Below are positions 1,141-13,583 of a stretch of DNA of 15,203 bases, in pieces. Source of the stretch: a bacterium (GTDB lineage: Bacteria; CSSED10-310; JAJRTK01); contig JAJRTK010000462.1 of NCBI GenBank assembly GCA_024278345.1, positions 1 through 15,203 of the forward strand. The letters run 5' to 3'. A model generated the notes under the pieces. It did no database searches. It was given only the letters and a program-made list of their open reading frames with translations, and had not been told where the DNA came from. Position 1 is the stretch's first letter, and each line of letters begins with the position of its first letter. Made by a program: the position numbers and the translations under genes.

Positions 1141-2772
1141 CTACTCTTCGGCCATGAATGGATAATCAAACTTCCGAGGCGGGCAAAAAGTCTCTTTGAT
1201 GGATTGCGGCGAAACCCAGCGGAGAAGATTCAAGTAGCTTCCCGCCTTGTCGTTTGTACCTGATGCCCGAGCGCCGCCGAACGGCTGTTGCCCGACCACC
1301 GCCCCCGTGGGTTTGTCATTCACATAGAAATTTCCGGCGGCATTTCTAAGGCTGTTGGCGGCCTGGATGACCGCTCTCCTATCCCGGGCAAAGACTGCTC
1401 CCGTCAGCGCGTATGGGGAGCCTTGGTCGCAGATATCCAAGGTCTCCTGGAACTTGTCGTCGGGATAGACATAGACCGTGAGGATCGGACCGAAGATCTC
1501 TTCAACCATGAGCTTGTGTGCCGGATCCGTCACTTGCACGAGGGTCGGTGGGATAAAGTAACCTTCGGACTTGTCGTATTTCCCTCCAGACAGGATCTCC
1601 GCGGTGGCGGACTCATGACCGAAGTCGATATATGCAGCAATCTTGTCGAATGCCTTTTCGTCGATGACGGCGCCCATGAAGTTCCTAAAGTCGGCCACAT
1701 CTCCCATACGTATCTGGGCGATTTGGGCAACCAGGAGTTCCTTGAGCTGGCGCCAAAGCGATGCGGGGAGATATGCCCTGGACGCCGCGGAGCACTTTTG
1801 GCCCTGGTATTCAAAAGCACCACGAATCAAGGCTGTGGCTAGCTCTTCCAAGTCCGCGGAGCAATGAGCGAAGACAAAGTCCTTTCCGCCGGTCTCTCCC
1901 ACGAGCCTGGGATAGGTCCTGTAGTTGGCGATATTCTGGCCGATCTGTTTCCAAAGACTCTGGAAGACGCCAGTGGAGCCCGTGAAGTGAATCCCTGCAA
2001 AGTTTGGATCCCCGACAACTCGGTCCGTCATCACAGCCGGTGACCCAGGCAGTAGATTGATCACGCCCGGTGGCAGGCCCGCTTCCTGGAAGAGCTCCAT
2101 GATGATATGGGCAGAGAAGACTGCGGATCGAGCTGGTTTCCAAAGCACGGTGTTGCCCATGATAGCGGGTGCGGAGGGGAGGTTTCCCGCAATCGACGTA
2201 AAGTTGAAAGGTGTCACGGCAAAAACGAAGCCTTCCAGAGGCCGATGTTCGAGGCGGTTCCAGATTCCCGTGCTTGAGCGGGGTTGATCCCGATAGATCT
2301 GTTCCATGAAGCAGACATTGAAGCGAAAGAAATCGATGAGCTCACACGCGGAGTCAACCTCAGCTTGGTGCGCGGTCTTTGACTGGCCCAACATGGTGGA
2401 GGCATTGAGGATCTGTCGATAACGGCCAGCAAGGATCTCGGCAGCTCGGAGAAAAATCGCGGCCCTCTCTTCCCAAGGGGTCCGCGCCCACTCTTCCTTC
2501 GCACCCATTGCCGCGGCAATTGCATCGCCGACGTCCTCTTGGCGAACGCTGTGATAAAGGCCTAATCGCCGCGAATGTTTGTGAGGCATCCGGATCTCCT
2601 TACAGTCACCGGAATAGACCTTCTTGCCGCCGATCACTGCTGGAACCTCCACCTCGGTGCTGCTCATGTCGGCAATGTTCAGCTTCAGATCGGCTCTCTC
2701 CGGACTCCCGGGACGGTATTCCAGGACCGGTTCATTGGTGGGCTCCGGGAGCCGACAAATCGCATTCGTCAT
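1141..2772 (-). CDS. pruA: L-glutamate gamma-semialdehyde dehydrogenase (1-pyrroline-5-carboxylate dehydrogenase, ALDH4 type)
   Basis: The 543-residue enzyme oxidises glutamate semialdehyde, the open form of P5C, to glutamate with NAD, the second step of proline catabolism. It is a stand-alone ALDH4A1-like enzyme without the PutA proline dehydrogenase domain. Visible ALDH landmarks are TPFNFTSIAGNLPSAPA near residue 190, the cofactor-binding FTGSTG near 263-268, the general base Glu293 in VGETGGKD and the nucleophile Cys327 in YQGQKCSAASR. The end of the protein has the expected FGGARASGTNDK block. The ATG at 2772 is preferred: GGAGG (2779-2783) is 6 nt upstream, whereas an in-frame TTG two codons earlier abuts that site. 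It lies 35 bp after the kinase gene and is probably co-transcribed with it. Proline dehydrogenase is not in the window. Confidence 0.94.
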   Translation of the reverse strand: MTNAICRLPEPTNEPVLEYRPGSPERADLKLNIADMSSTEVEVPAVIGGKKVYSGDCKEIRMPHKHSRRLGLYHSVRQEDVGDAIAAAMGAKEEWARTPWEERAAIFLRAAEILAGRYRQILNASTMLGQSKTAHQAEVDSACELIDFFRFNVCFMEQIYRDQPRSSTGIWNRLEHRPLEGFVFAVTPFNFTSIAGNLPSAPAIMGNTVLWKPARSAVFSAHIIMELFQEAGLPPGVINLLPGSPAVMTDRVVGDPNFAGIHFTGSTGVFQSLWKQIGQNIANYRTYPRLVGETGGKDFVFAHCSADLEELATALIRGAFEYQGQKCSAASRAYLPASLWRQLKELLVAQIAQIRMGDVADFRNFMGAVIDEKAFDKIAAYIDFGHESATAEILSGGKYDKSEGYFIPPTLVQVTDPAHKLMVEEIFGPILTVYVYPDDKFQETLDICDQGSPYALTGAVFARDRRAVIQAANSLRNAAGNFYVNDKPTGAVVGQQPFGGARASGTNDKAGSYLNLLRWVSPQSIKETFCPPRKFDYPFMAEE

Positions 2773-2807
2773 GGTCAACCTCCATCTTCAAGGTGGGGCA
2801 AGGAAAG

Positions 2808-5800
2808 CTACCGGCACCGGCGTCGGCGGCGCCTTTTCGCCTGTCTCAGTTTTTTCGACAGGTCCTCATCGCCAGGCTTGAACTCCAAGGCTTGCTGGTA
2901 GTTCTCAATAGCGTTGTTGCAGTTCTTGAGGCCAAGGTTCAGGTCTCCCAGGTATTCCCATGATTTGCTGGTGGGCTTTGCCTTTCCATGGAACCCCAAA
3001 AGCACCGTTTCGGCCGCCTTGTATTTCTCTTGTTGGATCAAGACGGCTGCAAGCGGAAGAACGAACCGCTCCTCAGCCCCTCCAAGGAGCAAGGCCTTCT
3101 GGTAGAAAGTGGCCGCGGCTTCAAGCCTGTTGTTGAGCTCGGCCAAGCGCCCTTGCTTGAGGCGGTATTCCGCTTCGTCGGGGTAGAGGCTTGGATTGGC
3201 GGCAATCAGTTTCTCCGCCCTGTCATACTGCTCAAAACGAAGCAGCAAATCGAGGTGGAGATCAAGAACGGCCCTGCGTCTGAGACCCAACTCATAAGCT
3301 CGCTCCAGATCATTTAGGGCCCCTTCAAAATTCTCCCGCTGAACCGCGAGGCTCCCGGACAAATAGAAATTCTCGGGCTCCGCCGACTGGACCCGAGTGA
3401 GATAACTCGATTGCGCCTCGGCCAGATCCAACTCTCCGCCCTCGAGAGCCAGCCATCCATATTCTCTGCGTGCGGAAAAAAATCGTTGATCGCTAGAAAT
3501 GAGAGATTGCAAGATCTGACGCGCTTCCGCCTCGCCCCCCGATTCCGCCAGGGATTTCGCCAGCAAGAAACGATCATTGGCGGTGGGGTTTTCTCCATCG
3601 ACCAGCCGGCGAAGCACGGGGACGGCATCTGGTGCCCGCCCTTGTAGAAGCAAGATCCGCCCGTGGGTTCTCAGGATTCTTGGGTCGTCGGGCAAGAGTT
3701 CCTTGGCCTTCCGGATGGCGACGTGGGCATCGTCAAAGCGGTGTTGTGTCGCCAATCTGGAAGCTCGCCGAAGAATCTCTGTCAACTGCTGGGCTCGCAT
3801 TTGAGGGAGAACGACGCCAAATGCGAGCCAAAGCCCGACGAGAATCAACGCTCCCATGACGGCCAGAACGGGTTTCGATGGGATCCAGCGCTTGGTGAGC
3901 AAACGCCGCCTTGAAAAGCGTTCCAGCTCTTTTTTGAGCACTCTTGCCTCATCGAGTTGGGGCCTGAGGCTCAACGCTCGATGTAGCTCGACCAGGGCCT
4001 GCGCCGGGTTCGAGTCCTTGATTTTTTGCGCCCGTCTGAGGGCCATGTAAGCACGGGTAAGCTTGTCACTCTGGAGCCGAGATTCAAGGGCGTGCCGCCG
4101 CTCTTCGGCTACGGAGTTATCTGGGACGATTTCCAGTATCTCGCCGTAAAGGACAAAAGCCTTAGCCACATCCCCCCGGCGTTCCAACTTGGAAGCCTCA
4201 TCAAAGAGGCTCTGAAGTTTTCGTTTGACCGCGGGGTCATCCACGATAGGCTCTGAGAACTTCCCACCATCCGGTTCTGGTCTTGGGGTCACCTTAGGTT
4301 TCGTCTCGCTCATCGATGGCGAGGAAGCAGAAGCCGACGAAGAATGGCCCCCAAGATCGAAGACGACATCATCTTCCGATTCCGCTTCCGACGCTTGAGG
4401 CTGTCCAGTTTCAAAGGTGATGTCATCAAAGCCTTCCGACTCCTCTGAAAAGCCGTTTCCGAGATCTTCATCTTCCATGAAACCGACGGAGAGATCGAAC
4501 AGCTCAGCCTCTTGTTCCTCCGCGCCATGAGAAGGCGCCTTCACCTGCCCGGCCCCAGTACTGGATCCAGCGGAGCCACCACCCTCCGAAAAAGTCTCGT
4601 CGCCACCAACCTGAAGATCCCATTCCCCCCAGACCTGTTCGGTCTCTACCGAAGCTAGCGAATCCTCACGGACGCTCAAGACAGGCTCATCTACTCTTGC
4701 CTCCGACAGAGCCATCTTGGCAATTGCCAAGCCTTCTTCCGCCTCCGAATCACCGGGACGAGCTTCCAGCAACCTCTCCCAGGCCTGAAGCGCACCAGAA
4801 GCGTCTCCAGCGGTTGCGTAGGCGCGAGCCTCCAATCTGGTCTCCTCGATATGGCGGAGGTCCGCGAGCTTCGCCCGAGCCAGTTCCAGGTTGAAATAGG
4901 CATCTGAATCGTTGGGATCTTGGGAGAGGATTCGCTCAAAGGTGTCCGCGGCAGCGTCATATCGGCCCGTTTTGTAGAGTTTTTTGCCCTGGTCAAAAAG
5001 GGACTGATCCCCGGAGATCACGGGTTCAGGGCCGCCGCGGAATCTGGCGGAAGGTGGCCTGGCCTGGGGAATAGCGGCAGATCTTGCCGAAGGAGAGCGG
5101 GCCGCGGAAGGAGGCGACCCGGCTGAACGGCCTATGGGCTCCAACCGAGCAGGGGTACCTCCAGAGAGAGCGTTCCGAGCTGATTCAATGCCTTTCCGCG
5201 CATGCAAATCACCGGGATTCGCATCAAGCACGCGCTCCCATTCGCTGATGGCGGCCTCATAGTCGCCAAGCTCATAGAGAGTCGCCGCTTGAAACAGAGC
5301 CCCCTCTAGGTCGCGTCTGTCGGCTAAACGAGCTTTCGCAATCTCTAGTTTGAAATAGGCCTCCGGATGGTCAGGCTCCATTTGGAGCAATTTTTCCAGA
5401 AGATCCCGTGCCTCTTGGAGCTGACCTGCCTCCAACAATCGCACCGCCTTGGCATAAGGGTCAGGATCTTTGGAGCGGGCGGCAGCGCTGTGGGGGTGGG
5501 GGGACGAAGCATGCTTTGGAGGAAAGTGTGCCGCTGAAGTTTCATCGGGGAAAGCAGTATCTAACAATGCCGTGGTTACGGGATTGAACCCTTGTTCACC
5601 GCCCACCAGATCCGACTGGGAAAAATCGAGTTTCCCGCCCAATTTGCCGGTGTGGCCCGATCCGGAAGGCTGTTCATCCCCAGGCAAATCACCATCCCCG
5701 AAAGCAGCATCAAAAAAGGCTGTCGTCACTGGATTAAACTGATCGCCGGAAACGCTGCCTGACTCGGCGTACGGCTCTCCTCCAGGCAAATCATCATCCC

Positions 5801-7070
5801 CGAAAGCAGCATCAAAAAAGGCTGTCGTCACTGGATTGAACTGGTCGCCCGAGACGCTACCTGCATTCGGGAAATCCAGCAATCCCAATGACTCTCCAGT
5901 CTTTTCCGGTTTCTTTTCGGCACCGGAAGATTCGAGAAGGTCATCTGGAAAAGCCGCGTCAAAGAAGGCCGTGTTGATCGCCTGAAAATCTCCCTGGTCA
6001 TCGACAGCCCAAAGCGCCTCCTTCTGCCTGTTTCCGGCGTGAGACTTCGACTCTGGCAAAATTGGCTTTGCACCATCGCCAGTTTGGTCTCCCTCTGGAG
6101 CTGTCAAAAAACCCATTTCATCTTCCCACTGGCTCACGACCCCAGCCAAAGACAACGAAACCGAGTCCATCGATCTGTTGGGCGATGGAACGGGAATCGA
6201 AACGGGCATATTCCCGTGGGAAGTCGGGGGACTTACAGGCCGAGCGGCTTCTTCACTCAGGGCCTGCTTGATAGCGACGAGCTCCTGGAGAATTGGCTCG
6301 AAATCGGTGTACCGGGCAGCAACGTCTTTTTCGAGACACCGTTTGAGAAGCTTCACCAAGCGATGAGGAATCCCGGGCAATTCCAGTGGCGGGACCGGTT
6401 CATTGAGGATTTTGTACACCGTGGACGCCGGGTTATTGCCTTCAAATGGCGGCATGTAAGCCAAAAGCTCATAGAGTACTATTCCAAAGGCAAAGACGTC
6501 AGATGCATTGGTGAGGTCACCCCCTCGAATTTGCTCCGGAGACATGTAGGTGGGACTTCCCACAACGGAACCTGCTCTCGTCATTCGGCTCAAGACCTGA
6601 GAAGTGATCATGGCGATCCCGAAGTCCATCAGCTTAACGACGCCGTTGTTGAGGATCCGTATGTTCCCCGGCTTGACATCCCTGTGAATGACACCCTTGG
6701 AATGGGCGTATTGAAGGGCACGGCCGACCTGAATGGCGATATTGATCTTCTGGCGCAAGCTCAGCTCGACGCTTTGATCAATGAGATCTCGTAGATCTTG
6801 GCCCTCCAAGTATTCCATGGCGATGAACAAGACACCATCAATCAAGCCCAGGTCGTGGATGATAACGATGTTCGAATGGGTCAAAGAAGCGGAGACTCTG
6901 GCTTCGTTGAGGAACCGTTTCCGGAGATCATCATCCGCCTGCAACCGCTGGTTGATCACCTTCAAAGCCACATCCCGCCCGAGCATCGTATCTTTTGCCC
7001 GAAAGACAATGGCCATACCGCCCACTCCAAGGCGACCCAGCAACTCGTATTTTCCCAGCCTCCGACCCAT
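2808..7070 (-). CDS. Transmembrane Hanks-type Ser/Thr protein kinase with cytoplasmic and extracytoplasmic TPR arrays
   Basis: This 1420-residue protein begins with a complete PknB-like kinase domain (about 8-264): glycine loop GRLGVGGMAIVF, Lys37 in VALKV, HRDVKPGN (129-136), DFG (149-151), and GSPTYMSPE (171-179). All catalytic residues are present, so activity is likely. A disordered linker (about 270-535) carries four copies of an FNPVTTAFFDAAF-like motif near 362, 411, 445 and 495. Two related TPR modules follow (about 538-636 and 690-790), then an acidic linker (800-940), another TPR-like segment (949-1050) and a single membrane helix (about 1067-1088). The remaining part (1095-1410) is TPR-rich, presumably extracytoplasmic, and ends in a basic tail with six consecutive Arg. 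The ATG at 7070 places the glycine loop correctly; GAGG lies just upstream at poor spacing. Its substrate is unknown. Confidence 0.93.
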   Translation of the reverse strand: MGRRLGKYELLGRLGVGGMAIVFRAKDTMLGRDVALKVINQRLQADDDLRKRFLNEARVSASLTHSNIVIIHDLGLIDGVLFIAMEYLEGQDLRDLIDQSVELSLRQKINIAIQVGRALQYAHSKGVIHRDVKPGNIRILNNGVVKLMDFGIAMITSQVLSRMTRAGSVVGSPTYMSPEQIRGGDLTNASDVFAFGIVLYELLAYMPPFEGNNPASTVYKILNEPVPPLELPGIPHRLVKLLKRCLEKDVAARYTDFEPILQELVAIKQALSEEAARPVSPPTSHGNMPVSIPVPSPNRSMDSVSLSLAGVVSQWEDEMGFLTAPEGDQTGDGAKPILPESKSHAGNRQKEALWAVDDQGDFQAINTAFFDAAFPDDLLESSGAEKKPEKTGESLGLLDFPNAGSVSGDQFNPVTTAFFDAAFGDDDLPGGEPYAESGSVSGDQFNPVTTAFFDAAFGDGDLPGDEQPSGSGHTGKLGGKLDFSQSDLVGGEQGFNPVTTALLDTAFPDETSAAHFPPKHASSPHPHSAAARSKDPDPYAKAVRLLEAGQLQEARDLLEKLLQMEPDHPEAYFKLEIAKARLADRRDLEGALFQAATLYELGDYEAAISEWERVLDANPGDLHARKGIESARNALSGGTPARLEPIGRSAGSPPSAARSPSARSAAIPQARPPSARFRGGPEPVISGDQSLFDQGKKLYKTGRYDAAADTFERILSQDPNDSDAYFNLELARAKLADLRHIEETRLEARAYATAGDASGALQAWERLLEARPGDSEAEEGLAIAKMALSEARVDEPVLSVREDSLASVETEQVWGEWDLQVGGDETFSEGGGSAGSSTGAGQVKAPSHGAEEQEAELFDLSVGFMEDEDLGNGFSEESEGFDDITFETGQPQASEAESEDDVVFDLGGHSSSASASSPSMSETKPKVTPRPEPDGGKFSEPIVDDPAVKRKLQSLFDEASKLERRGDVAKAFVLYGEILEIVPDNSVAEERRHALESRLQSDKLTRAYMALRRAQKIKDSNPAQALVELHRALSLRPQLDEARVLKKELERFSRRRLLTKRWIPSKPVLAVMGALILVGLWLAFGVVLPQMRAQQLTEILRRASRLATQHRFDDAHVAIRKAKELLPDDPRILRTHGRILLLQGRAPDAVPVLRRLVDGENPTANDRFLLAKSLAESGGEAEARQILQSLISSDQRFFSARREYGWLALEGGELDLAEAQSSYLTRVQSAEPENFYLSGSLAVQRENFEGALNDLERAYELGLRRRAVLDLHLDLLLRFEQYDRAEKLIAANPSLYPDEAEYRLKQGRLAELNNRLEAAATFYQKALLLGGAEERFVLPLAAVLIQQEKYKAAETVLLGFHGKAKPTSKSWEYLGDLNLGLKNCNNAIENYQQALEFKPGDEDLSKKLRQAKRRRRRRCR
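5673..5861 (-). repeat. Tandem 102-bp-period duplication inside the kinase linker
   Basis: Two copies of an 87-bp unit (5673-5759 and 5775-5861) lie 102 bp apart and differ at about ten positions; a 43-bp core (5693-5735 and 5795-5837) is identical. Each encodes GSVSGDQ followed by FNPVTTAFFDAAFGD and DLPG. Two more diverged copies of the motif lie on either side, near 5544-5588 and 5940-5987. The two close copies suggest recent unit duplication or homogenisation. Confidence 0.85.
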
Positions 7071-7098
7071 CCTCTGCCGACCCTCGTTCTAGGGAATT

Positions 7099-7153
7099 CC
7101 CCCGCAATTTACCCCCACCCTTCCGATACCCCCCTCACAAAATCCATTCCCCC
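7099..7153 (-). promoter_or_regulatory. G-tract cluster in the leader of the kinase gene (possible G-quadruplex)
   Basis: On the minus (mRNA-sense) strand five G-runs of 5, 6, 3, 5 and 5 bases (complements of 7149-7153, 7129-7134, 7118-7120, 7112-7116, 7099-7103) lie within 55 bp. They are all in the 91-bp gap between the TPR-anchor gene and the kinase ATG. Loops are 14, 8, 1 and 8 nt, slightly longer than a strict G4 rule allows. A role in limiting kinase translation or transcript elongation is inference. Confidence 0.35.
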
Positions 7154-7161
7154 ATGGCGCC

Positions 7162-8523
7162 TCACCAACTCCCGATAATCTCCTGTCCCCCCAAAAGATA
7201 CCAGGCGACCGCCCCGGCAATCAGCACCATCATCACAAAACAAAAACCCAACAGACGTCGGAACTTTCGGGCACGTCTTCCGCGGGCAAAGGAGCCTCTC
7301 TGCAAATGTCTTAGCAAAGACTGGGCCTCGACGAGATTTGGCCGTATCTGAAGAGCCGCCCGAAGAAGATCCATCGCCTTGGCGGGATTGTGCTCCGATA
7401 TCTCTTGGGCCTCCGCCAACTTGACTTTCGCGTTGCTCAGCGCACGGCTTTGCGAAATCTGTAGCATAGTCCGGAGCGAACTCAGCCGTTCCTGAGCCAA
7501 CACACTCTGAGGCGCCAATTCCATGATCTGTTCGTAAAGTTGAATCGCCGCTTCGGTAGATCCCTGTGCCTCCGCCTTCGAGGCTGCATCGACAAGCTGC
7601 CGAATCTTACGCCTTTGTTTTTTTGGGGGTCCACTTGCCAGCACTACATCCAGCGTATCCGGATCGATGCCATCATCATTCCTCTGGCCATTCCCTGGCA
7701 ATGCGGAATAGAAGTCATCCGTTCCAAAATCTTCGGCAAAGATTCCTTCTTCCGCCTCCGAAGACTCGTCTGCAAATTCATGGGAGGTTCGGACACCAGA
7801 GGGCTCCCCGTGGCCACTGGCGGAAGCAGGCGCGGACCCGACGTCCGCTTCTCCAAGGCGAGCGAGGCCCGCGGTAGCTCGCTGATTCCCGGGATCGAGA
7901 TCGAGAACTTTCCGCCACTCTCGCGCCGCACCCTCGGGATCTCCAGCTTCTTCCAGGGCCTTGGCTGTCAGAAGGGTCTCTTCCAAGAACTGTTGGTCGC
8001 CTTCCTTGGCCTTCGCCAGCTCGCTGTACATGTAGGCATCAGCATGATCGGGGTCCAGGTCTAACGCGGCTTCAAACCGGTCGCGTGCCTGGCGATAACG
8101 CCCGCGGTCAAAAAGCCGTTTTCCTTCCTTGAACAGCATTTCCGGATTCGCTTCGCCATCGCTCAAAGGCTTATTTTCCGCCGCCACCGCAACGGTGTGC
8201 TCCTCTTCCCGCAACTCCTCTTCTCCAAGAGAGCTGAGAGCCGCCTTAAGTGTCCCCTTTTCGGTCTCCGCGATCTTGGCCCGTGCCGCATCTACGTGTT
8301 TGAGAGTCTGCCGATGGCCGGGAACTCGTTCTAACACCAGATCCCAATAGGCCAAAGCCTGGCCATAGTCCCCTGCTCTAAAACAATCGACCCCCTTCTT
8401 GAACAAATCAGCCAGTTTTTTCTGTCCAGTGGAAGTTTGCACGTGCCCCATCCGTGGCCCCTTAGCGACCAATTTCTTGGAGGAATTCAAAGTGAGTGCA
8501 TTACCCATTTGATCTTGACTCAT
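7162..8523 (-). CDS. TPR protein with C-terminal membrane anchor, kinase-less paralogue of the neighbouring kinase's TPR-membrane region
   Basis: The 453-residue protein has no kinase domain. It has a degenerate TPR pair (about 36-90) and a full TPR module (128-224) that closely follows the kinase's 690-786 module, sharing the LF..GK.L...GRY..A pattern, ELA.AK and EET.L.A.A. An acidic linker (about 230-297) follows. Residues 302-410 resemble kinase residues 949-1055, ending in the same HNPAKAM..LRAAL.IRP pattern, basic stretch and a single hydrophobic helix (424-444). Only nine residues follow the helix, so most of the protein should be cytoplasmic and tail-anchored. The ATG at 8523 has a GGAGG-type site about 7 nt upstream. 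It lies between the secreted TPR gene and the kinase in one probable operon. It is likely a scaffold, adaptor or kinase partner; function is not known. Confidence 0.85.
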   Translation of the reverse strand: MSQDQMGNALTLNSSKKLVAKGPRMGHVQTSTGQKKLADLFKKGVDCFRAGDYGQALAYWDLVLERVPGHRQTLKHVDAARAKIAETEKGTLKAALSSLGEEELREEEHTVAVAAENKPLSDGEANPEMLFKEGKRLFDRGRYRQARDRFEAALDLDPDHADAYMYSELAKAKEGDQQFLEETLLTAKALEEAGDPEGAAREWRKVLDLDPGNQRATAGLARLGEADVGSAPASASGHGEPSGVRTSHEFADESSEAEEGIFAEDFGTDDFYSALPGNGQRNDDGIDPDTLDVVLASGPPKKQRRKIRQLVDAASKAEAQGSTEAAIQLYEQIMELAPQSVLAQERLSSLRTMLQISQSRALSNAKVKLAEAQEISEHNPAKAMDLLRAALQIRPNLVEAQSLLRHLQRGSFARGRRARKFRRLLGFCFVMMVLIAGAVAWYLLGGQEIIGSW

Positions 8524-8607
8524 CCAATCTCCTCCCCACCACCGCCTGATCCTTTCGACTCCCTCCGCGGGGCAAAGCCGCAGCTGTGGCGGGACACTCT
8601 GGACACT

Positions 8608-10275
8608 CTAGTCGTCACGAGGAATCTCAACAGTGGCAGTCTCAACCAGGCGAAACTGAAAAACTCCTGACATTCGCCCCTTTCGACGACTGTACTTGAG
8701 CTTTTCCCTGGTGCGTAGCCTCAGGATATTGTTGACTCCGGGGGCGATATCGACGCCAGCGTCGAACACCCATTCCTTGCTCTCCTCCCCCGCACCGCCA
8801 CGCACAACGATCTCAAGCTTCCGCCGACCCGCGGGCACATCGTCGAACAGGTAGTCTCCGGAAAAAACATGAATGTTCTTTGCGTGTCCCTTCTTGCCCT
8901 TTTTCGCGGGATGTTCGACCTCCGAATCAGTCAAATAGTAAACTGTGTCGCCATCGATACGAACAATCACCTCGATGTTGGTCTTCGACCGCTGCGTCGA
9001 GACTCTGGGATCAACTTTGGCCGACCACCAAAACGAATCTCCCTCGAACTCAAGCTTCACTCGGCCTTTGGGAGTCATCAGATCATCGAGCAACTGGATT
9101 TTCGCCTTGGCATCGGAATCGTCGGGTCTGAGGGCAAGGATCTTCCCGTAGTAGAATTTTGCTTCGGTGTACTTTTGATTCTCAAAGAAATTTTCCGCTG
9201 CACCGCGAAAGTAGTTTACGCGATCCCGTACCGCCTCGGGAGTCTCCTCACCTCGGACACCGAGAGCCTCGTAACACATTTCAAGGCCCTGCCTTGCCAG
9301 GATATCATCTGGAATGAGCTTGAGGATAGCTTGATAGTGCCTCTTGGCGGTGCGATAGTCCTTTCTGGCAAGGGCATCCTCCGCCCTCTGGAGCAACTCT
9401 TCGGGGCTGGTTTCCGCTTTGCCCGCAAGCGCGGCACGCGCTTCCGCAATCTTTTCATTGGCGAGAACGCGCCGCTCCCCCCACAAATCGACTCTTTTTA
9501 GCCTTTGAAAATAAGCGACTGCCTTCTGGAAATCCCCGCTGTCCAAGGCTTTGAACCCTTTGCGTTGATAAAAGGCACCGATCTTAGCCAAAAGTTCCCT
9601 GATCGTCGTGTTTTCCTCGTCAAGAGCCATGATCTGCCGCGCAACCTCCAGAACATTGGTCCCTTTCGGAGTCGTGTAATAATATTTCCGGAAGTAGAGT
9701 TTTGCCTTACTCTCAAGATTCGCGATCTCGCGCTTTTTCCGCGCCTCTTCCTCACCACTATCCTGATGTTCAATGGGCGCCAACCCGCTCCCACCCCAGT
9801 CATAGTCCCCGCCAATCGCCCCTTCGGCAGCCGGCGCTGGAGTTGGCGAAGAGCCTCCCGTCCCCAAAAGATCTTCGGGAGCAACCGATGGCTGATCCTC
9901 AGCATCACCCTCTTCACTCACTGCTGCACCAGAAGCAACCGGCGGCTCTGAAACGTCGCCCCCAGACTCGGGAATCCGGTCCTCCGAAACCGCATCCACA
10001 CCAGTCTCCTGGTCCGGCGACGGCGTGGGAGCAACCTCTGAATCAGATGCCTCTTCCGGAGTTTTTCCTTCATCTCCTTCGATGAGCTCCCGTGGATCAA
10101 AAAAATCTCCAGCTCCGTCAGCCTGCTCCTCCTCGGTCGATTCCTCGGAGGCAGACTCCGCCGTTTCGGGGGCGGACGTCTCTTTGCCGGATTCTCCCGC
10201 GCCGCCATCTTGACCTCGGGCTGGAACCCCTACCCACAAGAACACCAACAACCCTATCGATATCCATCGAAACAT
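8608..10275 (-). CDS. Secreted acidic TPR protein with C-terminal beta-rich domain
   Basis: From the ATG at 10275 the product is 555 residues. The start is chosen because it gives a clean signal peptide (Arg3, hydrophobic ISIGLLVFLWVGV, likely cleavage near ARG-QD at 20-23, no lipobox Cys) and GGAGG lies 9 nt upstream; the same frame extends to 10374 but the added 33 residues carry no signal. Residues 23-175 are Glu/Asp/Pro/Ser-rich and probably disordered. TPR-like helices span about 190-400. The last 150 residues are beta-rich and include DDVPAGRRKLEIVVRGG (478-494), reminiscent of PEGA or carboxypeptidase-regulatory-like folds. It is the first gene of the likely kinase operon and is the probable extracytoplasmic partner. 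No enzymatic motif is visible, and I do not recognise a named family. Confidence 0.8.
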   Translation of the reverse strand: MFRWISIGLLVFLWVGVPARGQDGGAGESGKETSAPETAESASEESTEEEQADGAGDFFDPRELIEGDEGKTPEEASDSEVAPTPSPDQETGVDAVSEDRIPESGGDVSEPPVASGAAVSEEGDAEDQPSVAPEDLLGTGGSSPTPAPAAEGAIGGDYDWGGSGLAPIEHQDSGEEEARKKREIANLESKAKLYFRKYYYTTPKGTNVLEVARQIMALDEENTTIRELLAKIGAFYQRKGFKALDSGDFQKAVAYFQRLKRVDLWGERRVLANEKIAEARAALAGKAETSPEELLQRAEDALARKDYRTAKRHYQAILKLIPDDILARQGLEMCYEALGVRGEETPEAVRDRVNYFRGAAENFFENQKYTEAKFYYGKILALRPDDSDAKAKIQLLDDLMTPKGRVKLEFEGDSFWWSAKVDPRVSTQRSKTNIEVIVRIDGDTVYYLTDSEVEHPAKKGKKGHAKNIHVFSGDYLFDDVPAGRRKLEIVVRGGAGEESKEWVFDAGVDIAPGVNNILRLRTREKLKYSRRKGRMSGVFQFRLVETATVEIPRDD

Positions 10276-12075: not shown

Positions 12076-12906
12076 CTACAGGCGCACGTCGAGCCACGGA
12101 AAAAGGATGTCGAAGATCCGTTTTCTGTCGGGGTCACCGAAAATCTCGTGATACATGGCTTCGAATACGTCCAGCCGCTTGTCCGAGGCTCCCACCCGAC
12201 CATAGAAATCCTTGGTGGCCGAGAGGTCCGCGATGCGATCCGACCCGCCAGCAAGTAAGAGCAACGGAAGCCGCAGCTTGTCTGCCTGGGCCAGAGCCTC
12301 CCCGTGAGCCACAAGTTGCCGCGAAAAAGCTCTGGCTGTCGCCACCTTTCCATACAAGGGATCGGCTTTGGTTTTCTCCACCACTTCATGATTCCTGGAG
12401 AGATCCTCCGCCGGCAGATCGGTGGGCATGGAAAACGTCGGCCAAGCACGATTCAACAGGCTAGCCAACAATTTTTTCCAAAGAGGAAGGGCAAATCTCA
12501 ACCCCAGGTAAGGGGAAGAGAGGACCAGGCCTCGGATCGATTCTCCCCGTCCAGCCTGCAAAAACCGAATCGCCACCAACGCGCCCATGGAATGGCCCAC
12601 CAGAAAACGAGGCAGCTCCGACGCGGGCCCGATTCTCAACAGGGAATCGAGGTCATCGAGGTAGTGACCGAAACAAGCCGCATGGCCTCGTTGGCCAGCC
12701 GAGCGGCCATGGCCACGAAGATCGAGCGCCGAAACAGTGTAGCCCCGGCGAAGCGCCTCGCCAACGAACTCCGGATATCGACCGGCGTGATCCAGGTAGC
12801 CGTGGACAAGAACCAGCTCCCCCTTAGGCTCCGAGGCCGGCCAGCGATAACCAGCCAACATCGTCCCATCCTTCGAAGTTAACTGGAATGTTCGGGCATC
12901 CTTCAT
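12076..12906 (-). CDS. Alpha/beta hydrolase, monoacylglycerol lipase / lysophospholipase-like (S33 type)
   Basis: This 276-residue cytoplasmic serine hydrolase has the monoglyceride-lipase layout: oxyanion-hole HG (35-36) in VLVHGYLDHAGRY, LDLRGHGRS (61-69), nucleophile Ser106 in GHSMG, acid Asp223 in GGSDRIAD and His253 in MYHEIFGD. The triad is complete and spacing is normal for the family. Likely substrates are monoacylglycerols, lysophospholipids or similar esters, but specificity cannot be read from sequence. Its ATG at 12904-12906 overlaps the TGA of the upstream cyclic-nucleotide-binding-like gene as ATGA, so the two are translationally coupled. There is no signal peptide. Confidence 0.92.
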   Translation of the reverse strand: MKDARTFQLTSKDGTMLAGYRWPASEPKGELVLVHGYLDHAGRYPEFVGEALRRGYTVSALDLRGHGRSAGQRGHAACFGHYLDDLDSLLRIGPASELPRFLVGHSMGALVAIRFLQAGRGESIRGLVLSSPYLGLRFALPLWKKLLASLLNRAWPTFSMPTDLPAEDLSRNHEVVEKTKADPLYGKVATARAFSRQLVAHGEALAQADKLRLPLLLLAGGSDRIADLSATKDFYGRVGASDKRLDVFEAMYHEIFGDPDRKRIFDILFPWLDVRL

Positions 12907-13583
12907 GAAATCTTTTCCCTGCTAATCAGCCACTCGTTCGCTTCCGCCTTCTGGTCCAAATAACCCTCCAAATAGTTGGCGACACTGGAATCCTTGAGCA
13001 GATCCTGGATGACGCCAGACGCCTTGGAGATCAGGCCGCTCTTGTCGGTGGTGGCGCTGAAGTAGCGCCCCCTCATGCCGGTGAAGTGGTCTCGCATCTG
13101 GCACAAGAAGCGGAACATGTACATGAACTCCTGCCAGGTCTTGATGCTCTTGCTGGCAGCTACCGCCGTTTGTACCAGCGACCGCATGAACTCCTTGAGA
13201 GGAACAGCGATCACCGGAGTCTTCTGGTTTGCCGAAATAATTAGAAGACAATTTCTGGCGATCTGCCCCGTAAGACTCTTGAGGATGAGAGAGGTCACCT
13301 GATCATTCCCCAACTCGAAGACTTGCTTGACCAGGTTGGCGGGATACTCGATGACCGTGGAATTGTCTTCCAAGGCCACGACGCCAGCGGACCGAATGGG
13401 CTCTTCGCCGTCAAGAGTAAAAATCGCGTTCTCTCCCAACACCATCTTGGGGTAGATGAAGCCCACCAGCTCTTGCCCGGTCTTGACGGCAAGCTTTCCC
13501 TGTTCGAGGATGGCGATGGAGCGAGCACGGTCCCCTTTCTCCCAAAGGAGAGCATTCTTCGACAGGATGAGCTTCCTTTGCAT
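12903..13583 (-). CDS. Cyclic nucleotide-binding-domain protein without a DNA-binding domain
   Basis: The 226-residue protein starts with a cNMP-binding-like beta barrel (about 5-85). WEKGDRARSIAILEQGKLAV fits the first strands; GEN at 50-52 and the IRSAGVVA segment with Arg64-Ser65-Ala66 correspond to the phosphate-binding GE...R(S/T)A cassette of CRP-like domains. The remaining 140 residues are helical (VTSLILKSLTGQIA, then a helix-rich tail) and show no winged-helix, cyclase or kinase motif, so this is not a CRP-type transcription factor. The ATG at 13583 is preceded by purine-rich sequence rather than a well-spaced strong site. The stop overlaps the hydrolase start (ATGA). It may sense a nucleotide and act through protein contacts, perhaps with the hydrolase; that link is inference. 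Confidence 0.75.
   Translation of the reverse strand: MQRKLILSKNALLWEKGDRARSIAILEQGKLAVKTGQELVGFIYPKMVLGENAIFTLDGEEPIRSAGVVALEDNSTVIEYPANLVKQVFELGNDQVTSLILKSLTGQIARNCLLIISANQKTPVIAVPLKEFMRSLVQTAVAASKSIKTWQEFMYMFRFLCQMRDHFTGMRGRYFSATTDKSGLISKASGVIQDLLKDSSVANYLEGYLDQKAEANEWLISREKIS

Follow-up and report, generated by a model that had tools for sequence, protein, structure and literature searches.

Serine/threonine kinases carrying tetratricopeptide repeats (TPRs) have been described in 'Ca. Uabimicrobium amorphum', where 115 kinases have TPRs, mostly outside the membrane in single-span proteins, and have also been reported from Myxobacteria (PMC11032199). Another described arrangement is PknG-GlnX-GlnH, in which a secreted binding protein acts via a membrane protein on a TPR-dependent kinase (PMC6069109, PMC8546545). 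These systems are compared here with three consecutive, co-directed genes on the minus strand of contig JAJRTK010000462.1, a stretch of 15,203 nt referred to in its entirety as the window. The genes are predicted to encode a secreted TPR protein (gene 1), a tail-anchored cytoplasmic TPR protein (gene 2), and a membrane-spanning kinase that has TPRs on either side (gene 3). The trio is an orderly variant of a known receptor-kinase type and not a demonstrated new system.

Gene 3 has the N-terminal cytoplasmic kinase, the single span, and the tandem outer TPRs of the outer-TPR kinases of Planctomycetota, and a large lineage-specific expansion of kinases is common to that group and to this genome (PMC11032199). 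It belongs, however, to a different phylum and has extra TPR modules inside, between the kinase and the membrane; moreover, the window contains, next to the kinase gene, a kinase-less partial copy and a gene for a secreted protein with a domain of the kinase-ectodomain type. As regards the kinase domain, the nearest family is that of the PknB/StkP PASTA kinases (NF033483), which have a similar receptor topology, but gene 3 lacks any PASTA match in Pfam, falls below the family cut-off, and bears a TPR solenoid instead. Among three-gene systems, PknG-GlnX-GlnH of Actinobacteria, also composed of a secreted protein, a membrane protein, and a TPR-dependent kinase, comes closest in logic. Yet PknG is soluble and without a membrane span, whereas the window kinase spans the membrane; GlnX is a multi-span protein with periplasmic four-helix bundles, whereas gene 2 carries a single anchor and matches no four-helix bundle; GlnH is a lipoprotein that binds solutes, and gene 1 has no solute-binding domain; finally, that operon is kept in Actinobacteria, whereas the trio was seen once. 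The trio is not PknG-GlnX-GlnH, since it lacks the defining features of that system. The statement of the sequence-only reading that no named system has this layout was nevertheless too strong, given the published outer-TPR kinases (PMC11032199) and the named PknG-GlnX-GlnH operon (PMC6069109).

The three genes and the predicted topology of their products

The window is one complete contig of a 6.1-Mb draft genome (G000; 550 contigs, C1–C550; 88% complete) from the CSSED10-310 phylum, which has been placed as the sister of Acidobacteriota (PMC8248873). Three intact open reading frames (ORFs) follow one another on the minus strand, to which all coordinates in this section refer, in the order gene 1 (10275–8608), gene 2 (8523–7162), and gene 3 (7070–2808), and their GC contents at the three codon positions are alike and coding-like (0.63–0.66, 0.44, and 0.58–0.60). 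The intergenic gaps are 84 and 91 nt long; no convincing terminator was found in them, and the scores of the promoter and terminator scans were not above those of shuffled sequences. The gene coordinates proposed earlier were correct, and so was the choice of an internal start for gene 1: its reading frame opens at GTG 10374, and the preferred ATG at 10275 sits after GGAGG, a better ribosome-binding site. That of gene 3 is weaker than those of genes 1 and 2. The topology proposed for the three products, predicted from sequence, agrees with the Pfam matches, the hydropathy, the positive-inside flanks, and a structural model.

Gene 3 (2808–7070; ORF and Pfam) encodes a receptor-type Ser/Thr kinase of 1420 amino acids (aa), composed of the kinase domain, a repeat linker, two paired-TPR modules, an acidic linker, juxtamembrane TPRs, a membrane helix, and an outer TPR solenoid. 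The PknB-like kinase domain (aa 8–262; 6285–7049; PF00069, E 7e-51) is complete, with the GxGGMA loop, K37, HRDVKPGN, DFG, and SPE all present, and is predicted to be catalytically active. Its best family model, NF033483 (PknB/PASTA), matches aa 6–277 only, with 306.8 bits against a cut-off of 450, and the nearest solved kinases are PknA and PknB. The anti-phage kinase PD-T4-6 indicated by PADLOC was rejected as an identity: the matches shown all lie within the kinase domain (aa 2–312), and genes 1 and 2 match nothing. C-terminal to this domain, a linker rich in S, G, P, A, and D contains four repeats of the form TA[FL][FL]D[AT]AF (5542–5988). Two of them are the product of a 102-nt tandem duplication (5655–5858), whose 83% DNA identity indicates that these two TAFFDAAF copies were duplicated fairly recently. 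Nothing else in the phylum matches the linker above noise, and the repeats were discarded as a shared docking motif.

The two cytoplasmic paired-TPR modules (5181–5465, E 8.5e-33, and 4725–5009, E 7e-35) were found with the paired-TPR alignment A2, and the juxtamembrane TPR block (3903–4229) with an own-genome search and BLASTP against gene 2. TPRs, which are present in genes 1 and 2 as well, are placed by Pfam at about aa 540–780 and 950–1055 of gene 3 on the cytoplasmic side and at about aa 1109–1411 on the outer side. The only strong hydrophobic segment, the putative transmembrane helix of aa 1068–1088 (3807–3869; hydropathy 2.54), is located inside a continuous predicted helix and preceded by RRRLLTKRW, in agreement with the positive-inside rule; beyond it, aa 1089–1420 (2811–3806) should form the extracytoplasmic TPR solenoid (Pfam TPRs, with modelled hairpins partly of low confidence). 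A single-sequence AlphaFold model of aa 940–1420 (mean predicted local distance difference test score, pLDDT, 66) shows a single long helix, in which the membrane segment lies, flanked on either side by helical hairpins. Gene 3 is thus predicted to span the membrane once, with the kinase inside and the TPR array outside.

Gene 2 (7162–8523; 453 aa; Pfam, BLASTP, and hydropathy), whose ATG is preceded by GGGGAGGAG, contains a paired-TPR module (7858–8145; A2 search, E 1.7e-36), a juxtamembrane TPR block (7282–7617; 41% identity to kinase aa 948–1056), and a C-terminal membrane anchor (7189–7254; hydropathy 2.25). The anchor is predicted to be oriented with its N-terminal side inside because the basic stretch RGRRARKFRR stands N-terminal to this sole C-terminal hydrophobic segment. 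BLASTP aligns gene 2 aa 47–221 with kinase aa 598–782 (34% identity) and aa 304–453 with kinase aa 949–1081 (35%); the blocks are successive and collinear (E 1e-23 and 2e-17), and the alignment runs through the membrane segment. Moreover, the top non-self matches of gene 2 in its own genome are three places in the gene 3 kinase (E 4e-19 to 6e-16), followed only at E 1e-5 by the next match. Judged by these comparisons, the likeness exceeds chance, and gene 2, which lacks a kinase domain, is either a partial copy of the TPR, juxtamembrane, and membrane parts of gene 3 or the source of them. The earlier observation of shared modules therefore stands for this pair, in which collinear homology through the membrane segment explains it by common descent.

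Gene 1 (8608–10275; 555 aa; ATG 10275, ribosome-binding site, and hydrophobic N-terminus) begins with a single hydrophobic segment, which looks like a signal peptide in a hydropathy scan (not SignalP); the putative signal peptide (10207–10275) reads MFRWISIGLLVFLWVGVPARG, with cleavage presumed before Q. It is followed by a TPR-like domain designated 'YTxPxGxN' (9436–9741; aa 212–313 in P0003 numbering), delimited with a five-row alignment (A1), a genome search, and the host proteins found, and carrying a motif that resembles 'YTTPKGTNVLEVARQIMALDEEN'. Next come TPRs (P0003 aa 324–420; 9115–9405) recognized by Pfam TPR_2, TPR_14, and TPR_1, with modelled helices at pLDDT 66–91. The C-terminal domain (8611–9054) is predicted, with low confidence, to be beta-rich, the model having about seven strands. 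These 148 aa match nothing in Pfam at E ≤ 10, on which ground a PEGA identity was rejected, and the naming of the fold was abandoned, as the model is too weak and the PDB matches are TPR folds only.

Distribution of the trio and of its parts

Conservation was followed in seven other CSSED10-310 genomes and about 378 further genomes, the nearest of which represents a different family from that of the window. The trio occurs together in none of the seven, nor in any other genome searched, and an orthologue of gene 1 is absent from all of them. A contig scan of the named genomes with the kinase as the query yielded no orthologue, and a scan with a TPR-membrane-TPR alignment recovered, apart from weak TPR matches, only CSSED10-310 members that were known before. 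In another genome of the phylum (G007), two kinases share the layout, and no homologue of gene 1 or gene 2 is found among their neighbours. The three-gene order expected to be conserved across genomes was therefore not found, with the nearest genome compared coming from another family, and the proposal of a new conserved three-gene system is not supported; as far as a between-family comparison reaches, the three genes do not co-occur, and the two G007 kinases of this layout stand without the other two genes.

Besides the absence of the trio elsewhere and the partnerless G007 kinases, three further observations weigh against a single machine. At 84 and 91 nt, the genes are spaced rather far apart for a tight operon. 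The 6-Mb genome has roughly 100 Ser/Thr kinases (at least 80 kinase matches were obtained in each of two others of the phylum, G006 and G007) and at least about 85 ORFs for TPR proteins, by a rough count in which 150 of 927 candidates were scored, and with TPRs and kinases so common, neighbouring genes may be unrelated. Finally, the 'YTxPxGxN' domain of gene 1 is not confined to kinases. Its five-row alignment was searched against 386 genomes, and the host proteins of the strong matches were read. Of the 11 strong matches resolved, three lie outside kinases: in a SUMF1-type protein that is secreted and encoded in the window's own genome (C408), in an SH3-type protein of G242, and in a short one of G236.

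The other eight hosts of this domain are kinases (G007, G293, G186, G320, G041, G341, G321, and G302), and in all eight it comes after the membrane span. Three of them are seeds of the alignment, and G320 and G041 are from the same family as a seed; with these set aside, the fully independent kinase hosts are G341, G321, and G302. Judged from these hosts, the domain, for which Pfam has no specific family, elsewhere mostly belongs to the outer part of membrane kinases. It is apparently unnamed and turns up repeatedly in the outer regions of membrane kinases from unrelated genomes (loci L080, L078, L091, L092, and L094), and in L094 it is repeated three times in tandem after an FHA-looking segment.

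When the phylum was searched with the paired-TPR module, 99 bits or more were reached only by the window kinase, gene 2, the G007 kinases on contigs C157 and C94, and four kinase-less TPR-membrane-TPR proteins of about 730–760 aa, one each in G005 (C28), G002 (C19), G001 (C59), and G003 (C316). These CSSED10-310 proteins share with the window kinase the paired-TPR module and the TPR-membrane-TPR order, but their kinases, if any, are in another branch of the tree and their gene neighbours are different. Homology between the G007 and the G005/G002 proteins extends along the full TPR-membrane-TPR length, with 25% identity (E 4e-31) between the outer parts of G007 C94 and the G005 protein; the outer part of the window kinase is weakly similar to these relatives (E about 1e-5). 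The TPR-membrane-TPR core is thus spread over the phylum and may or may not be joined to a kinase. The kinase-less genes of G005 (L039, 6684–8954) and G002 (L040, 8666–10846) have, by eye, a common neighbourhood, with apparent obg, nadD, surE, and a membrane protein gene on one side and a gene for a large protein on the other.

In a tree of 46 kinase domains (FastTree support values, midpoint rooting) the window kinase groups with paralogues from its own genome, C99, C222, and C101 (support 0.92–0.94), and the G007 TPR-kinases are located elsewhere. A shared ancestor with the G007 kinases was rejected as the origin of the layout, as the tree sets the window kinase apart from them. With this support and rooting, the separate positions indicate that a kinase probably joined the TPR-membrane-TPR core at least twice. 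The nearest paralogues of the window kinase carry SUMF1, PEGA-like, or other ectodomains; that of C99 is SUMF1-type, and that of C222 was judged PEGA-like by eye.

Neighbouring genes and a dispersed element

The gene following the kinase in the same direction encodes L-glutamate gamma-semialdehyde (P5C) dehydrogenase (1141–2778, minus strand; TIGR01236, 803 bits). It starts 29 nt after the kinase gene (35 nt if ATG 2772 is used) and has its own GGAGG; this spacing is shorter than the gaps among genes 1–3, and the two genes are possibly on the same transcript. A conserved link between them was rejected, as four relatives of the dehydrogenase in other genomes of the phylum (55–60% identity) have no kinase neighbour.

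Two further minus-strand genes (12076–13583), for an alpha/beta hydrolase and a protein with a cyclic-nucleotide-binding domain, overlap by 4 nt and are probably co-translated. The contig ends (15092–15203) within a dispersed element of about 201 bp with 24-bp terminal inverted repeats (GGCCTCGGTCATGGTACCGGCCAC) and internal hairpins, complete copies of which are present in L174 (120–320) and L175 (37–237) with the 8-bp target duplications CAGGTTTG and GTTTTCTG. About 40 copies with 98–100% identity were scored from 466 first-look candidates, most of them near contig ends; the element resembles miniature inverted-repeat transposable elements and probably fragments this assembly.

A possible sensing cluster and its alternatives

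A receptor kinase together with a secreted accessory protein and a partner devoid of a kinase domain would make a plausible sensing cluster, and this reading of the trio is given slightly less than an even chance. The earlier idea of a single machine that senses outside and signals inward is thereby kept as plausible, on the grounds of the topology, the shared modules, and the gene 1 domain, and given up as a conserved new system. In such a cluster, the outer TPR solenoid of gene 3 would bind a protein partner outside the cytoplasmic membrane, and the signal would cross via the single membrane helix, probably by clustering, to reach the PknB-like kinase domain held inside on TPR scaffolds. The inner TPRs of the kinase may associate with gene 2 and with substrates, gene 2 working at the same membrane as a scaffold, a competitor, or a substrate adaptor. 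Gene 1, combining a domain of the kinase-ectodomain type with the beta domain, would be the best candidate for a ligand or co-receptor outside the cytoplasm. The TAFFDAAF repeats of the linker are candidate sites of autophosphorylation or docking, and the three genes may be co-transcribed. A further, clearly unlikely extension is that signalling parts have been re-used at this locus, with the kinase-less partner derived from the inner TPR-membrane part of the kinase and the secreted ligand from a domain of the kinase-ectodomain type, in a phylum where kinases were acquired repeatedly by the TPR-membrane-TPR core.

The strongest competitor of the sensing cluster, although itself rather unlikely, is that there is no joint machine: gene 3 would be one of about 100 receptor kinases, gene 2 a leftover partial duplicate of it or the donor of its TPR part, and gene 1 an unrelated secreted TPR protein located upstream by chance. 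The lack of the trio in the other genomes searched, the abundance of kinases and TPR proteins, and the width of the gaps are all in line with it. So are the other ectodomains of the paralogues with which the kinase domain groups, a sign that domain shuffling is common, and the four dehydrogenase relatives without a kinase neighbour, which point to a labile neighbourhood. Gene 2, however, does not look like a decayed copy, being intact, with a good ribosome-binding site, a codon GC like that of its neighbours, and a complete anchor, and the gene 1 domain is seen mostly on kinase ectodomains.

Quite improbable is a scaffold for envelope assembly (secretion, a pilus, or an outer-membrane complex) with TPRs on both sides of the membrane and regulated by the attached kinase. 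TPR solenoids on the two sides and the kinase-less TPR-membrane-TPR relatives in the phylum, suggestive of a kinase-independent role, would suit such a function, but the window contains no secretin, pilin, Bam, or secretion gene, and the weak resemblance of gene 2 or gene 1 to BamD and PorE models, as well as that of gene 2 and the kinase to the model of a type IV pilus protein, is generic TPR similarity far under the curated cut-offs. Nutrient sensing akin to PknG-GlnX-GlnH, with glutamate/proline metabolism controlled and P5C dehydrogenase as the co-transcribed target, is very improbable: the secreted/membrane-TPR/kinase logic is the same (PMC6069109, PMC8546545) and the dehydrogenase with its own GGAGG starts only 29–35 nt past the kinase, yet there is no solute-binding protein, gene 1 with its TPRs and beta domain is not GlnH-like, and the dehydrogenase relatives in the phylum lack a kinase neighbour.

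The 'YTxPxGxN' domain could become the basis for a new family model, and the phylum-wide TPR-membrane-TPR core with its optional kinase illustrates the assembly of receptor kinases by domain fusion. Should gene 1 prove to be the ligand of the neighbouring kinase and gene 2 its non-catalytic partner, the trio would bear on how the expanded receptor kinases of uncultured phyla are activated, as a concrete set of ligand, receptor, and partner amenable to study in a recombinant system.

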